The notes under the pieces: model-generated
Databases searched by the model: none
What the model was told of the DNA's origin: nothing
The model's input: only the letters and a program-made list of their open reading frames with translations
NCBI RefSeq assembly: GCF_038502225.1
Contig: NC_091325.1
Coordinates: 33,082,514 to 33,146,513, forward strand
Length of the DNA stretch: 64,000 nt
Origin: Cherax quadricarinatus
Lineage: Eukaryota > Arthropoda > Malacostraca > Decapoda > Parastacidae
Direction: 5' to 3'
Made by a program: the position numbers and the translations under genes
Shown here: in pieces, positions 5,731 to 55,355 of the stretch
How positions within the stretch are numbered: the stretch's first letter is position 1
Layout: each line of letters starts with the position of its first letter

Positions 5731-5870
5731 AGGTGGGATCGAACCCCTTAGCAGACGAGTCCTGAATTGCGGAGTTCAGTATGTTAACCACTGGACCATG
5801 CCGGACTTACAAACTATATTCAACTTTGCTTATTTCTATACACCATAGAAATGATAGCACAGTCAACACT
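5731..5870 (-). repeat. tRNA-derived SINE, single arm of the palindromic family
   Basis: On the minus strand there is an A-box-like TGGTCCAGTGGTTA and a B-box GGTTCGATCCC at tRNA-like spacing. A leader resembling TATGGTGTAGAAATATA precedes them. The same order (leader, then tRNA-like part) forms each arm of the palindromes at 43639-43953 and 51870-52080. Here only one arm is present. The acceptor ends do not pair, so it is not a functional tRNA gene. Confidence 0.65.
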
Positions 5871-8062
5871 ATGACCATAAATGCTGGTTTTTGAAGATGA
5901 ATCCCACACAATCTGTGTTTTACTATAGATCTCATCCTCTATATCATGTTATTATGATTTTTTGAGTCATGGGGCACATTACCTAGGAATGTTCGGCTGT
6001 TCACTCGGAAAGAAAACATCTCACTCATAAAACTCGCCACCCAATCGATCATCACAATTTTATTCCTCCAGTACTAGACAATGTATATTTTTTCGAAAAT
6101 TGACACGCATTGAAAACATTCGAAAACTTTTTTGAATAAAAACAGTTGTATACGAATCTTTTGAGGAGACTTGCATTCATGACCAGTATTACGTCTTCAT
6201 ATTTATTTATTGGATGAGACATGTGTGAACACTGTTCATCTATTACATCCATAATACCCAAAGTAGCTCTGTCAACAACATTCTAAACATTATCTCCTTA
6301 CCAGTCACTTACAAAGCGTTATTAAAACACTTTATTAAACTTACCTCCGACCTAAGCTACAACCAAAACTGCGAGAAACCAACCTGCAGTTTAGTCATTT
6401 TCTTCGTAGAACTATATTATGCCAGACGCAGTTCTACACTAAGACTATTATAGATCCTAAAACCCAAGATGAAAATAGTTTCCCTTTTCTTTCAGTAATG
6501 TACAATTTTGACGCAAATACAACAGAAATCAATTCAGGTTCATCATGAATCCTCTCTCATTATAAAGCTTGTAATAATAGCATTGTGGAGTCCTCGTTCA
6601 CTCGTAAATTTGGATGGTAACTACAAAAATAATCTGCATTCATTGCTGAGATACACAGGATTTAGAAACACAATTTGTTGCAAATACGAAAGAAACATCA
6701 AAGTCTATGTCTCACACTTTAACATGAGGACTGTTTCAGAGGATATGTAATATCCGTATAAAAGATACAAGTACACTGAAGTATACTACACAATGAAACA
6801 GTTTGTGAAAAGGCCAAGGAAATGCACAATACAAAACGTTCAACACGATTTTCACTCCTGTAAATAGTCCGTATTAGATTTGAAATCTATCATTGTTTAC
6901 AATATCTTTGACAAACGGAAAATGGCATGATAATTAACACACAATGGAACTATAAAAACAAAGAGCTGGGAAGTGTGGAAAGTAAAATACATAAAGTTAG
7001 ACTATTAAACTCAGGAATGGTCTGAATAAGGTCACAACCACAGTACAGAGCAGTTATTAAAGAAAATTGTTTTTATTGCCAAGTTATAGAAGCGATGTTT
7101 TCCATTCCTTCGTTGTAGATATAACTGTGCAAAAACAATTTTGAAACCCGAATTTGCTGCCCTTAGAATGCGAGTTCTTAGAAACAGTAACAAAACTGGG
7201 CAGAATGCAAAAACAAAAACAATAAAAACTATTCCAAAATCGACGATGAAGAGATATAAACATTTTCACTACAATTCCAGCAAGCGCCACTTAAGAGTTT
7301 ATATTTCTGGCTTTACAATGTGTATTACAGTCTGAGTCACAGTGACAGACTGTATGCAGGTCGCATTACAATTGTTATTATATGACCTTCTCTGTGAAGT
7401 GTTATCACAACTACTGTAAACCCGATACTTTTGTCGATAAAACACACATATAACGTCCAGAAAGTTTAAATCTCAAAAATCAACAAAATAAAAATAATTT
7501 ATTGGTCTAAGGATATACGTAACCAAAGTACACTGAACAAATCAACAGTGCTTTCAGGAGTTAGAAACACAGTGCTCAATCTCACTTCTAAAATAGATAT
7601 TATTATATATATACAAGTTACCTTAATGAGTGTATTGACTTAACTATTTGTCTATTTGCTTGCGAACTTTCTTGATACGTGTATCATACATAAACATTAG
7701 TTACACGTTATTAAAATATCCATTACAACCTAAACAGCCTATCCATTATAGATACAAACTCCTTTATGACCTAAACAGCCTATCCAAGATAGATACAAAT
7801 TCGTTTTCGAATTAGTAGTCAAAACGCTGGCCAACGAAAGCAAACGCGAAACAGCAAGGGAGACCACCAAACACCCTATGGTAAACATATATGTCCAAAT
7901 ACCACAACAAAGTTCCAATTGCAATCCTAGGAAGCGCAGTTATCCCCATAATACAAATCATAATTATCAGTTGACAAGAATAAAAACATACAAAAAATTT
8001 AAATATTTATGTGATATCAAATATTTATGATAGCAGCAAAAAATTACATACACAAATAACCT
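5871..8062. other. AT-rich intergenic, no gene seen
   Basis: I see no protein family or RNA gene. A short near-duplicate (CCTAAACAGCCTATCCA) occurs at about 7730 and 7770. Small open frames here show no coding character. Confidence 0.5.
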
Positions 8063-11350: not shown

Positions 11351-12675
<1,325 letters not shown>

Positions 12676-16075: not shown

Positions 16076-16089
16076 TTTTGACTACCACC

Positions 16090-16392
16090 CACAGGATGGT
16101 TCTGGGGTGCATAATAAACATTAAACTAACTTCTCACACGGAGGGCCCGGGTTCGATTCCCGGCGGGTGGAACATATCGACGCCTTTCCTTACACCTGTT
16201 GTCCTGTTCACCTAGCAGCAAATAGGTACCTGGGTGTTAGTTGACTTATGTGCGTCGCATCCTGGGGGACAAGATTGAGGACAACAATGGAAAAAAGTTA
16301 GACAGTCCTCTATGACGCACTGACTTTCTTGGGTTATCCTGGGTGGCTAACCCTCCGGGGTTAAAAATCCGAAGAAAATCTTATCTTATCTA
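16090..16392 (+). repeat. tRNA-derived SINE (family S1)
   Basis: A B-box-like GGGTTCGATTCCCGGC near 16150 is followed by the body CACCTAGCAGCAAATAGGTA, then GTCGCATCCTGGGGGACAAG, and a tail near 16330 (TTGGGTTATCCTGGGTGG). The same body occurs at 19200-19344 with 26052-26130, and inverted at 26222-26435. The tRNA-like head is incomplete, so this is a retroposon and not a tRNA gene. Confidence 0.75.
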
Positions 16393-43379: not shown

Positions 43380-44293
43380 AGAACAGTGTTGCAGAAACTG
43401 AATAAACAACCCTATGTCAAAGTACAGTTAGATATAGCTGGTTTTTTTCCACAATTCTGGTAAACAGACATATGACCTGGTCAGAATCACTGTTGGTCTA
43501 GGAAACAGGAAAAAGACAGTAGAAGCTGTGGTAGTAGATGATTTGCCTAAGTCTGTGCAGATCCAGGGATTAAAAAGAAACAGTTGCAGCACTGAAAGCA
43601 GCTAAGGTCAAGTTAGCCTGTCCTGACATACAGACGGAAACCATACCCCCGGCCGGGATTGAACCCGCGGTCATAGAGTCTCAAAACTCCAGCCCGTCGC
43701 ATTAGCCACTAGACCAGCTAGCCACAATAAGATTCATCCAACTAGGTATATTTCTACACCATAGGAAAGTTAGCACAGGCCTGTGCTAACTTTCCTATGG
43801 TGTAGAAATATACCTAGTTGGATGAATCTTATTGTGGCTAGCTGGTCTAGTGGCTAACGCGACGGGCTGGAGTTTTGAGACTCTATGACCGCGGGTTCAA
43901 TCCCGGCCGGGGGTATGGTTTATTTGCAATCGTGTCATTACGATTTCTTAAGTCATACAGACGGACACTATTAGTCCAATTGATTTAATTATTGGAAGTG
44001 ATTATTATCACTGTTTTGTGCAAAATATAGTAAGTAAACATGATGTTCACTTGCTGAAAACAGCAGGAGGCCACATGATATGTGGTCCCATTCCCTCTCA
44101 AAGTGGGAAAGAAGCTGATATTGATTCAGTGGAAAATGTACTAGTTACAAGAATAACCGCTGATCATGTTCCACAGCAAAAATTGTCATTACTGGAAGAA
44201 ATGAATGAACCAGTTGATAAGTTGTGGGATTTAGATGCGATAGGTATTGATGTAAATAAACCAAGCCCACAAGAGTCTCAGACTTATAACTAA
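43380..44293 (+). pseudogene. BEL/Pao protease region, interrupted
   Basis: Degraded codons near 43425 (VQLDIAGFF) and 43480-43590 (RITVGLGNRKKTVEAVVVDD) precede the SINE. After it come IDLIIGSDYYHCFVQ (near 43980) and GGHMICGPIPSQ (near 44065), typical of the BEL/Pao protease-RT linker. Frame changes lie before the SINE, and TAA is at 44291-44293. The Asp-Ser-Gly active-site motif is not recognisable. Confidence 0.75.
43639..43953 (+). mobile_element. Palindromic tRNA-derived SINE with 12 bp TSD
   Basis: Two 142 bp arms (43638-43779 and 43780-43921) are reverse complements with one mismatch seen (T/C near 43702). Each arm runs from the centre through a leader to a tRNA-like part with A-box TGGTCTAGTGG and B-box GGGTTCAATCCC. 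A 32 bp tail follows the right arm. CATACAGACGGA is present at 43627-43638 and 43954-43965. The insertion splits the protease-RT linker of the BEL/Pao element. Confidence 0.9.
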
Positions 44294-46042
44294 TATTTGG
44301 ACACTGTCAAATATAAAGATGGACAGTATTGGGTTAGGTTACCATGGAAATTAAATCCACCACATCTGCCTAGCAATTATCGCATGGCTTTCGGACAAAT
44401 GAAAGCACAAATACATGAGCTCAGGAACAATCCAGAGCTACTGACTGTCTATGATAATATCATACAAGAACAGTTGGAAAATAAATTCATTGAGGAAGTA
44501 GTCGAAGATAAGTTGAAGACAGAAGCTCATTATCTCCCGCACCATGGAGTCAGAGAAGATTCTGAAACCACTCCACTGCGTGTTGTATATAATTGCAGCG
44601 CACGTGCAAATAAAGATGAAGCAAGTTTTAATGATTGTCTGATGACCGGACCCTCACTAACTGAGAAGCTTGGAGACGTTCTTATGAAATTTCGCAGAAA
44701 CCCATATGCTTACACGGCTGATATTTTCAAAGCTTTTTTAAGAGTAGGACTACAAGAAATAGATAGAGATTATACTCGATTCTTGTGGCCTGAAAATCCA
44801 CATGATCCTCAAAGTTCTGTGAAAACTTATTATTTCAAATCAGTATTGTTTGGTGCAACATCCTCTCCATTCTTACTAGAAGCTACTCTAAATACACATT
44901 TGAAGAAATCTGAAAGTCCCTTCAAAGAAGTCTTAAAGAAAAGTTTCTATGTGGACAATCTTCAAGGTACTGTGAATAAAGAGGAGGATTTGAAATCCTT
45001 ATACAGAGAGGCTAACAAAGAGATGAAAGAAGCAAATATGCCTCTAAGGATGTGGAATACAAATTCAAAGAAATTAAGGGAACTTATCAAAGAAGATTTC
45101 CCTGAAACTGAAATTCCTGATTGCAACAATATGCTGAGACTTGAAAGGAACACACAAGAAGATACTTTGAGTCTCAAAAGGATAAACAATAAATCATGCA
45201 GTACACTCATTAAACGTAGTTTACTGTCAGAGATATCACAATGTTTTGATCCTCTAGGACTCGTCTCACCAATTACCATAAAAGGTAAAATGCTTATGCA
45301 AGATGCATGGAAACTCAAAATTGGGTGGGATGAGAACTTGCCTCTAGAAATGAATCAAGCATGGGATGAAATATCCAAGGAGTTTAAACAACTTCATCAA
45401 ATTAAATTTCCCAGACAAATAGGTCAAGAGGGAAATAAGTACACATTACATGTGTTCTGTGAAGCTTACATGAGTAATGCTGAAGGAAGTACACTAATTA
45501 CTTCAAAGGCCAGGGTAGCACCCTTGAAGGTCAGAACAGTACCACAATTGGAACTGACAGCACTCTATGTAGGTACAAAATTAGCTGTCTATCTAAACAT
45601 TGTACTTGATCATCTCACTATTAAAAAAAACGTGACATGGAGTGATAATGAAGAAGTTCTCCAGTGGTTTAGAAATAATAAGAGTAAGCTGGTCTATGTA
45701 CAGAACAGAGCAGCAGAAATAAAAGAGATGCAGAGACATTATCTCTTTTTCCATATCTCTACCCAAGAGAATCCAGCTGACATGTTGTCACGTGGTGTCC
45801 CACTCAAGAAATTTGTGGATAATAAATTATGGCTCCACGGACCGAACTGGCTCTCTAATGAAAATAACTGGCCTCAGCAAAAAGCTCACATTATGCCAGA
45901 AGAAACAGTTTGCTTGAACACAGCAGAAATAAGTTGTGTAAATACTGCAGACACAACAGAAATAGTCATTGATGGATCTAAATACTCATCTTTGAGTAAA
46001 CTCTTAAGAGTTACAGCTCTTGTCTTTAAATTCATTAAATGA
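44294..46042 (+). pseudogene. BEL/Pao reverse transcriptase and RNase H
   Basis: The frame reads RVVYNCSARANKDEASFNDC and AYTADIFKAFLRVGLQ (RT motif A near 44720), VLFGATSSPFLLEATL (near 44850) and a catalytic box YVDN at 44948-44959, with Asn in place of the last Asp. RNase H-like sequence follows (HVFCEAYMSNAEGS near 45455, TVPQLELTALYVGTK, TWSDNEEVLQWF near 45637, ENPADMLSRGV). The frame stays open for 580 codons to TGA 46040-46042, a normal size for this region. Stops bound it on both sides. Confidence 0.88.
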
Positions 46043-51869: not shown

Positions 51870-52080
51870 AACGGGTTGGATAGAACCCGCGATCAGAGAG
51901 TCATAAAACTCCAGACCGACGTGTTAGCCAATGTCCCAGCTGGCTACGATAAAATTCATCCAACTAGGTATATTTATACGCCATACACCTTCCTATGGTG
52001 TATAAATATACTTAGTTGGATGAATCTTATTGTAGCCAGGTGGCCCAGTAGCTATCGCGTCGGTCTGGAGTTTTACGACC
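51870..52080. mobile_element. Palindromic tRNA-derived SINE, diverged copy
   Basis: Arms centred near 51990 read outward through CTATGGTGTATAAATATAC, AGTTGGATGAATCTTATTG and a degraded tRNA-like part. The left arm still has GAACCCGCGATCA, the inverted B-box region. The right arm stops near TCGGTCTGGAGTTTTACGAC. Same architecture as 43639-43953 but with clear divergence between arms. Confidence 0.82.
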
Positions 52081-52926: not shown

Positions 52927-55355
52927 ATGAAGCTCTGTATAGTCTGCAGTCAATCAAACAAACGGGCTTCCACATGGATAAATTGTCATTTTTGTGGAAA
53001 TTGGTGTCACGCCCCTTGTGCAGATATCCAAGAACTAGCTACAAGCAGTATTAAAACAGGGAAGTGTTTTTGGGTATGCCCAAATGAGGAAAATCTGTGG
53101 ACTAAAATCACAAGGGTATTAAAAGAGGATAACATCAAAGCTGCTTTCATAGACAACCTGGAAGCTTTCTACAACAGATGGGAACATAAAAAGGCTGGGC
53201 TGGATGGTACTGTCCTTGATACTGGCCATGTAGTCAGAAACTGTAAGGCTGGAGGTGATGTCCTGGTAGTCAGTAAATGTGGGGCTGATAGTGCTGTCCT
53301 GGAGATAGTAATGGTGAAGCTGGAGGTGCTGTCCTGGTAGTCAGTAATGGTGAAGCTGGAGGTGCTGTCCTGGGAGACAGTAATGGTGAAGCTGGAGGTG
53401 CTGTCCTGGGAGACAGTAATGGTGAAGCTGGAGGTGCTGTCCTGGGAGACAGTAATGGTGAAGCTGGAGGTGCTGTCCTGGGAGACAGTAATGGTGAAGC
53501 TGGAGGTGCTGTCCTGGGAGACAGTAATGGTGAAGCTGGAGGTGCTGTCCTGGGAGACAGTAATGGTGAAGCTGGAGGTGCTGTCCTGGGAGACAATAAT
53601 GGTGAAGCTGGAGGTGCTGTCCTGGGAGACAGTAATGGTGAAGCTGGAGGTGCTGTCCTGGGAGACAGTAAAGGTGAAGCTGGAGATTTTGTCCAGGTAG
53701 TCGGGAATTATACGCAGGAAGGAATACATATAAATGACCTCATAGGGGACAGGAGCCGTAGTGGGGAAACAAGTGTAGTCAAAGATAAGATAAAACCAAT
53801 ATTGCAAACTAGAAATACCACAGGAAATTGCAAACAAGAGGACTCCACTAGCAATAGTGAGGATATATTACCAAAAACAACTGGTGGGAGCTCCATTGTT
53901 GGTGCTAGGGAGGATAGGAATAAGACAGGGAAACATGCACCAACAGGGAATACAGTCACAGAAACCCAAGGCAAACGGAAACCAAGCCTGTGCACATACT
54001 ATGTACTTGGTATCTGCAGACATGGGAAATCTGGAAAAACAGACGGGACATGCAACTATGACCACCCTAGAAAATGCCATGCCCATATGACAACAGGAAA
54101 ATGCAAACTCTCTTCCTGTAAGCTTTTTCACCCTGAAATGTGTACCTCTTCAGTACAGGAAAGACTGTGCTATAACTTATATTGCCAGGCACACCCTAAA
54201 GTCGGTCGATGTATCTATAATTTCCTCACTAACAGAACACAGAGAGTAGTCGTCAACAGAGTAAAGTCCGAGGCAGCTACGGTGAAAAGCTTTGTTCCAC
54301 AAGGCACAGTACTCGCTCCCATCTTGTTCCTCATCCTCATATCCGACATAGACAAGGATGTCAGCCACAGCACCGTGTCTTCCTTTGCAGATGACACCCG
54401 AATCTGCATGACAGTTTCTTCCATTGCAGACACTGCAAGGCTCCAGGCGGACATCAACCGAATCTTTCAGTGGGCTGCAGAAAACAATATGAAGTTCAAC
54501 GATGAGAAATTTCAATTACTCAGATATGGTAAACACGAGGAAATTAAATCTTCATCAGAGTACAAAACAAATTCTGGCCACAAAATGGAGCGAAACACCA
54601 ACGTCAAAGACCTGGGAGTGATCATGTCGGAGGATCTCACCTTCAAGGACCATAACATTGTATCAATCGCATCTGCTAGAAAAATGACAGGATGGATAAT
54701 GAGAACCTTCAAAACTAGGGAGGCCAAGCCCATGATGACACTCTTCATGTCACTTGTTCTATCTAGGCTGGAATATTGCTGCACACTAACAGCACCTTTC
54801 AAGGCAGGTGAAATTGCTGACCTAGAAAATGTACAGAGAACCTTCACGGCGCGCATAACGGAGATAAAACACCTCAATTACTGGGAGCGCTTGAAGTTCC
54901 TGAACCTGTACTCCCTAGAACGCAGGCGGGAGAGATACATGATTATATACACCTGGAAAATCCTAGAGGGACTAGTACCGAACTTGCACACGAAAATCAC
55001 TCACTACGAAAGCAAAAGACTTGGCAGACGATGCAACATCCCCCCAATGAAAAGCAGGGGTGTCACTAGCACGTTAAGAGACCATACAATAAGTGTCAGG
55101 GGCCCGAGACTGTTCAACTGCCTCCCAGCACACATAAGGGGGATTGCCAACAGACCCCTGGCAGTCTTCAAGCTGGCACTGGACAAGCACCTAAAGTCAG
55201 TTCCTGACCAGCCGGGCTGTGGCTCGTACGTTGGTTTGCGTGCAGCCAGCAGCAACAGCCTGGTTGATCAGGCTCTGATCCACCAGGAGGCCTGGTCACA
55301 GACCGGGCCGCGGGGGCGTTGACCCCCGGAACTCTCTCCAGGTAAACTCCAGGTA
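52927..55355 (+). pseudogene. CR1-like LINE (family B): ORF1 fused to RT
   Basis: ORF1 opens with a PHD-type zinc finger (CIVC ... INCHFCGNWCHAPC ... FWVC, residues about 5-57). A one-base loss near 53301 shifts it out of the frame that continues. That frame runs through a 12-residue tandem repeat (GGAVLGDSNGEA), then CCCH-like zinc fingers (CTYYVLGICRHG, CKLSSCKLFH, near 53995-54130). At about 54205 it passes without a break into the RT (NFLTNRTQRVVVNRV, VPQGTVLAPILF, catalytic SSFADDTRI near 54385, EYCCTLTAPFKAGE). It ends PRGR-stop at 55322, then CTCCAGGTAA repeats. The endonuclease and RT N-terminus are missing by in-frame deletion. Confidence 0.88.
53240..53690. repeat. 36 bp minisatellite within LINE ORF1, about 10 copies
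   Basis: Unit GAAGCTGGAGGTGCTGTCCT plus GGGAGACAGTAATGGT, nearly identical between copies from about 53350 on, more diverged at the left. It encodes 12 residues in the ORF1 frame. Long minus-strand frames across it are artefacts. Confidence 0.93.

Follow-up and report, generated by a model that had tools for sequence, protein, structure and literature searches.

The palindrome at 43627-43965 of the analysed window (the whole stretch of 64,000 nucleotides from Cherax quadricarinatus, contig NC_091325.1) looks like a normal transposition product of a SINE family whose copies carry two divergent arms and one tail. We think it probable that such an insertion is made by a Penelope-like reverse transcriptase, which uses the SINE RNA as template to extend the two strands of the cut target towards each other. 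On the design of the copies, mobilisation of the SINE by a putative partner, a Penelope-like element (PLE), is the most likely reading. With a non-coding unit of 272 bp and thousands of copies, the family provides a large set of complete insertions whose ends, arms and central joins are all legible.

Anatomy and setting of the window palindrome

The palindrome is real. Its two 142-nt arms (43638-43779 and 43780-43921) are 99% complementary and are separated by 0 nt of spacer; the single mismatch, which pairs A at 43701 with C at 43858, is a CpG/TpG difference. Two exact 12-bp copies of CATACAGACGGA, at 43627-43638 and at 43954-43965, form the target site duplication (TSD), base 43638 being common to the TSD and the left arm. 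The sequence-only reading had described a near-perfect 284 bp palindrome of two opposed tRNA-like SINE arms, with one mismatch and a 12-bp TSD, inserted as one unit; this description is confirmed, the TSD flanking the whole unit and boxes being present in each arm.

Mapped onto the unit of the family, the left arm (43638-43779, minus strand) runs from position 240 down to 98, and the right arm including its tail (43780-43953, plus strand) runs from 98 to 272. The two arms meet at 43779-43780, both at unit position 98, where the centre sequence is TTAGCACAGGCCTGTGCTAA and the microhomology is 2 bp (GC). A motif scan places the B boxes at 43655-43665 (minus strand) and 43894-43904 (plus strand), and the A-box-like sequence TGGTCTAGTGG was read by eye at 43706-43716 (minus strand) and 43843-43853 (plus strand). 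ARAGORN called neither arm as a tRNA and Rfam gave no gathering-level match for the palindrome, so that the label "tRNA-like" rests on the A and B boxes. The microRNA precursor models that Rfam places over the palindrome at E up to 1 were rejected; they are far below their own cut-offs, and any long hairpin may score in this way.

Two features were absent from the sequence-only reading. The right arm extends 32 bases (43922-43953, plus strand) beyond the left arm, and this tail, present at a single end only, carries a hairpin with its stem at 43928-43933 and 43940-43945 and the loop GTCATT. In addition, the direction from A to B box is outward in both arms, and the predicted internal promoters would diverge from the centre. 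Neither of them would then span both arms, which speaks against the long RNA hairpin that had been expected from either promoter; a transcript of both arms would have to come from read-through that begins outside the unit.

The host of the insertion is a BEL/Pao-type pol region (43540-46042, plus strand), identified from domain matches and from the frame across the joined flanks. Joining the flanks at one TSD copy gives a reading frame that crosses the site without interruption for 54 residues, preceded by a stop, and the ORF downstream of the palindrome matches Peptidase_A17 and RVT_1.

Relatives of the element are found elsewhere in the window. A second palindromic member of the family, diverged, lies at 51878-52074; its centre, at about 51988, is short and asymmetric, and no TSD was found for it. 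A more distant relative with a different body occupies 5735-5970; it has a reversed B box at its left, a shared stretch at 5818-5862 and the same type of tail at 5944-5970, in whose hairpin one stem pair is changed on both sides (G-C versus A-T). A 9-nt repeat near this relative was considered as a TSD and is not convincing. At 53292-55322 (plus strand), near-identical GDSNGEAGGAVL repeats open a long frame that continues into a reverse transcriptase domain, and at 16085-16171 (plus strand) ARAGORN called a candidate tRNA-Ile (aat) of 87 bases, which may be a gene or a repeat.

Ends, arms and junctions across the family

A 24-mer from the arm of the 272-bp unit was matched exactly at 12,363 places (6176 + 6187, control 0) in the genome, which measures 3.95 Gb. 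This count comes from an exact pattern search; the whole-unit DNA search, which skips common words, returned nothing. The 100 listed places of the 24-mer, all on contig C1, group into 47 sites, and extrapolation from these gives several thousand insertions. Our sample thus consists of 47 consecutive sites in the first 21 Mb of C1, all with the exact 24-mer, and of the window, 48 sites in total. At locus L031 the 24-mer is present four times in minus and five times in plus orientation, in 272-bp units that lie within a single TSD, and the arms differ at only 8 of 4548 compared positions; one real unit of this locus was used as the reference for mapping all 47 sites and the window. The family shares with tRNA-derived SINEs its short non-coding unit, internal A and B boxes and dispersed copies with TSDs.

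The sequence-only reading had raised the case that all other copies are single-armed. We found the opposite: simple divergent arrays, a minus arm followed by a plus arm, are present in 44 of the 48 mapped sites. The four non-simple sites are L066, which we judge from the mapping to be two divergent insertions; L018, with one older divergent insertion and one insertion without a visible second arm; L049, which shows one arm only; and L062, with one arm, minus only. Since L040 and L041 share flanks, the 44 simple sites represent 43 independent events. A palindrome also does not imply a recent insertion, as had been supposed, given that seven of the 44 simple sites have a mean identity to the reference unit of only 84-91% and are still two-armed.

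The outer ends of these arrays are of two kinds. The tail ends exactly at unit position 272 in 37 of the 44 simple sites, and the non-tail end lies at 234-246 in 39 of them, stopping just before the 32-nt hairpin tail (sequence AATCGTGTYATTACGATT, hairpin AATCGT-GTCATT-ACGATT). When tail ends are taken as 262-272 and the other ends as 227-247, one end of each kind is found in 39/44 sites and two tails in 0/44. The five sites that do not clearly fit the one-tail rule are L043 (next to a run of N), L057, which may have zero tails, L058, L068 and L069. TSDs of at least 9 bp were seen in 36/44 sites, with 11-13 bp in 30 of these (raw counts, no shuffled control), and their length ranges from 9 to 17 bp across sites.

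In 29 of 37 sites the base after the full tail is the unit's own continuation, and the next two bases are so in 23 of 37; the match would fit a start site inside a continuing RNA, and is partly due to the addition of CAAG or CGAG. Such additions, 4-5 extra bases CAAG or CGAG(T) between tail and TSD, were observed at L050, L042, L038, L063 and L040/L041; they repeat the end of the tail, as if the enzyme had slipped when copying began.

Terminal inverted repeats together with TSDs are also found in DNA transposons, and a DNA-level origin, from a foldback or MITE-like transposon or by growth of a palindrome through recombination, was weighed against these ends. The outer ends differ, however, by the 32-nt tail, the TSDs vary over 9-17 bp, the arm lengths and centres vary freely, and the units contain A and B boxes; neither the constant terminal inverted repeats nor the fixed TSD length of a MITE or foldback element is seen, and we consider an origin of this kind very unlikely. 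An artefact of assembly or reads is extremely unlikely: palindromes can trouble assembly, but the TSDs bracket the entire two-armed unit in 36/44 sites, and a read artefact would be expected to produce neither the mostly asymmetric centres nor the consistent difference between the two outer ends.

The junctions, at which the two arms meet, show how each copy may have formed. All 44 junction position pairs among the simple sites are different, and hence every insertion creates its own inverted form, with no dimer inherited as a unit; the idea that the element had moved as a ready-made inverted dimer is not supported. The 88 junction ends are evenly spread over the unit (KS p 0.64), so that there is no preferred template end. 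Among the 26 junctions that were counted as readable exactly, at sites with an identity of 95% or more, microhomology of at least 2 bp is present at 16, compared to 14% of simulated random joins, and 3-8 extra bases are present at 4.

Snap-back priming had been offered as a maker of the palindrome; here, the SINE cDNA would fold back, self-prime its second strand and insert as an inverted dimer, perhaps then being mobile as a dimer. In 22/44 simple sites it is the arm without a tail that is the longer of the two, and this rises to 26/44 when the tail is subtracted from the other arm; a single cDNA that serves as its own template therefore cannot account for the family; the differing centres likewise speak against the inheritance of a dimer. 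Symmetric centres do occur in 4/44 sites (the window copy, at 98/98, L001, L057 and L068), which is above random expectation, and self-priming has been proposed for Penelope elements, inferred from palindromes at inverted junctions (PMC3846280). The window copy taken alone may, given its symmetric centre, be compatible with snap-back; as a general route it is refuted by the arm lengths, and we regard it as a decidedly unlikely explanation.

The two arms of a site also resemble each other in sequence. At 13 variable positions, arms of the same site agree in 369 of 391 comparisons, whereas exchanging arms among sites (1000 rounds) gives 257 +/- 6 agreements, with a maximum of 280. In overall divergence, 19 of 25 tested sites have arms that are closer to each other than the median for other sites, and in the remaining 6 the divergence between the two arms equals or exceeds that of a typical pair of sites. 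Variants are thus mostly common to both arms of a site, which argues that most arms come from one RNA or one source. Overall, the interpretation given in the sequence-only reading is partly supported, and it was correct in its local reading and probably wrong in the cause that it proposed.

A proposed Penelope-like link and mechanism

GIY-YIG domains mark Penelope-like elements with endonuclease. A GIY-YIG coding scan, in which 150 of 14,992 candidates were scored, revealed pairs of matches within 6 kb of each other, and 27/27 of these are arranged minus then plus; the pairs were identified by their GIY-YIG matches. Both 3' ends were read for three pairs (C77, C21 and C19). One end stops after GTGTTTATATTTCC, the other continues with a 31-nt tail that carries a GGTAT..ATACC hairpin, and there is exactly one tail per pair. 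Two of the pairs have exact flank repeats, one of 13 bp and one of at least 16 bp; the third has only 8 bp, which is not convincing.

The genome contains a second repeat that ends in AGTCAC-GGTATT-GTGACT (189 + 189 copies, control 0); we take it to be the pLTR of a PLE, with no coding sequence seen beside it. Its hairpin has the same 6-bp stem length and the same G-N-Y-ATT loop as the SINE tail. Among 105 such hairpins in 360 kb picked for these elements, 101 have the stem of the SINE tail, one belongs to the PLE-like repeat and the remaining three are of other kinds.

Two side observations were made at individual loci. At L101 (1500-1700) there is, by eye, an apparent mosaic of SINE tail, a piece of the PLE-like pLTR and a tRNA-like piece, which looks as if a copying enzyme had switched templates. 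At L016 (1909-2039), a long near-perfect inverted repeat adjoins the SINE array; several Rfam microRNA models match it, all under their cut-offs.

A search for a PLE coding partner by the tail pattern gave 710 + 785 matches, and the 30 loci read among them were mostly SINE relatives with no recognised PLE frame. Starting from the L090 junction, only two exact and two three-mismatch matches were obtained, and the combination of pLTR end and tail pattern gave one match; neither of these searches returned a coding copy with the tail. No PLE coding copy with the exact SINE tail was found; the link rests on architecture and on the shape of the hairpin. The 272-bp unit has no room for a frame with RT and GIY-YIG domains, and the SINE can thus at most be a non-autonomous user. 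Its copies do have the make-up of a Penelope-like integration product, with two divergent arms and one tail of about 30-40 nt.

These data also bear on LINE-type twin priming, in which the second target strand would prime within the RNA of a LINE-dependent SINE and the 5' part would become inverted. In LINE-1 twin priming, both target strands prime, part of the element is inverted, and TSDs and microhomology joins are formed; it is a minority outcome, and the second site is variable. Twin priming would thus account for inversions, TSDs and microhomology joins, and the fact that no partner PLE with the exact SINE tail was found is in its favour. Against this, the SINE is two-armed in 44/48 sites, which is no minority, its second start is fixed near 240, its arms pass unit borders in 25/44 sites, and GIY-YIG copies in the same genome have the same design. 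We consider twin priming to be unlikely.

We instead favour extension of both target strands by a Penelope-like enzyme, which could proceed as follows. The PLE protein would make cuts about 12 bp apart in the two target strands, and each 3' end would prime at one of two fixed internal sites of the RNA, one at 272, with the tail included, and one at about 240. The template would be a circle or a multi-unit RNA, because copying continues past the borders of the unit, and 25/44 simple sites have an arm that exceeds one unit in length. The two cDNAs would stop at scattered places and be joined mid-way, often via 1-5 bp of microhomology. Support comes from the two end types, the divergent order, the scattered centres, the microhomology, the TSDs, the shared arm variants and the GIY-YIG copies with the same design. 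The sampled sites suggest a simple rule: each strand has its own start site, both arms are copied from a single template, and the stops are scattered and joined by microhomology.

A more specific model is conceivable, which we put forward tentatively and with rather less than even confidence. The family could represent a SINE class that parasitises PLEs and is copied around an RNA circle, with two protomers per SINE RNA, one per start site, each of which makes a separate rolling copy from one of the target strands; a palindromic array with a single tail, in many cases of several units, would then be the normal product and no accident. Already on the favoured reading, the family would be a SINE that relies on Penelope instead of a LINE. 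In the open-access literature, judged from listings except for the papers cited here, we recognised no Penelope-dependent SINE.

Comparison with known systems

The purified protein of Poseidon, a PLE from anole, is described as cleaving and extending both strands, with copying starting at two adjacent internal RNA sites and the tail being the stretch between them (PMC11167929). An enzyme that behaves in this way predicts the pattern of the SINE, namely divergent arms whose ends lie one tail length apart. In the in vitro experiments of that study the strands did not differ in start site; the SINE copies suggest that in vivo each start site is used once per insertion. The start site in vitro is also described as having no homology to the cut DNA, in contrast to the post-tail match in 29/37 SINE sites. 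The same paper describes the later insertion steps of PLEs as yet to be validated; completion of PLE insertion is thus an open question there, and the SINE copies bear on it.

In Adineta vaga ("A. vaga" in PMC3846280), Penelope elements are described whose pLTRs are inverted, with palindromic junctions, and of which one pLTR carries a 31-bp tail. The SINE resembles the Penelope/Poseidon clade, as far as it is portrayed in PMC3846280 and PMC11167929, in its divergent inverted arms, tandem units and one tail of about 31 nt, and likewise in its TSDs, tail hairpin and microhomology joins. Unlike members of this clade, it is non-coding, with A and B boxes, a 272-bp unit and thousands of copies, and no hammerhead was found in the loci scanned. 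PMC6685494 mentions short nonautonomous Penelope elements of butterflies, with no two-armed form of this kind.

Metazoan non-LTR retrozymes are short tandem units for which RNA circles have been proposed, with PLEs as candidate movers (PMC7229834). The SINE is like them in its tandem units of a few hundred bp, in copying that is proposed to use an RNA circle and in its proposed mobilisation by PLEs. It is unlike them in that the type I hammerhead, which defines retrozymes, was not found, and in that the circle is only hypothetical in the SINE; Rfam detected no hammerhead in L031 (E up to 5) or in five further loci (E up to 1), and we do not classify the SINE as a retrozyme. The word "inverted" is absent from the main text of PMC7229834 on retrozymes.

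With tRNA-derived SINEs that are mobilised by LINEs, the family has in common that it is short and non-coding, with A and B boxes, a hairpin 3' tail, TSDs and a high copy number. It is unlike them, and unlike the variable minority products of LINE-1 twin priming, in that almost all sampled copies have two arms, often with several units, and in that copying starts inside a template that continues. In its design, the SINE matches PLE copies and not LINE copies.
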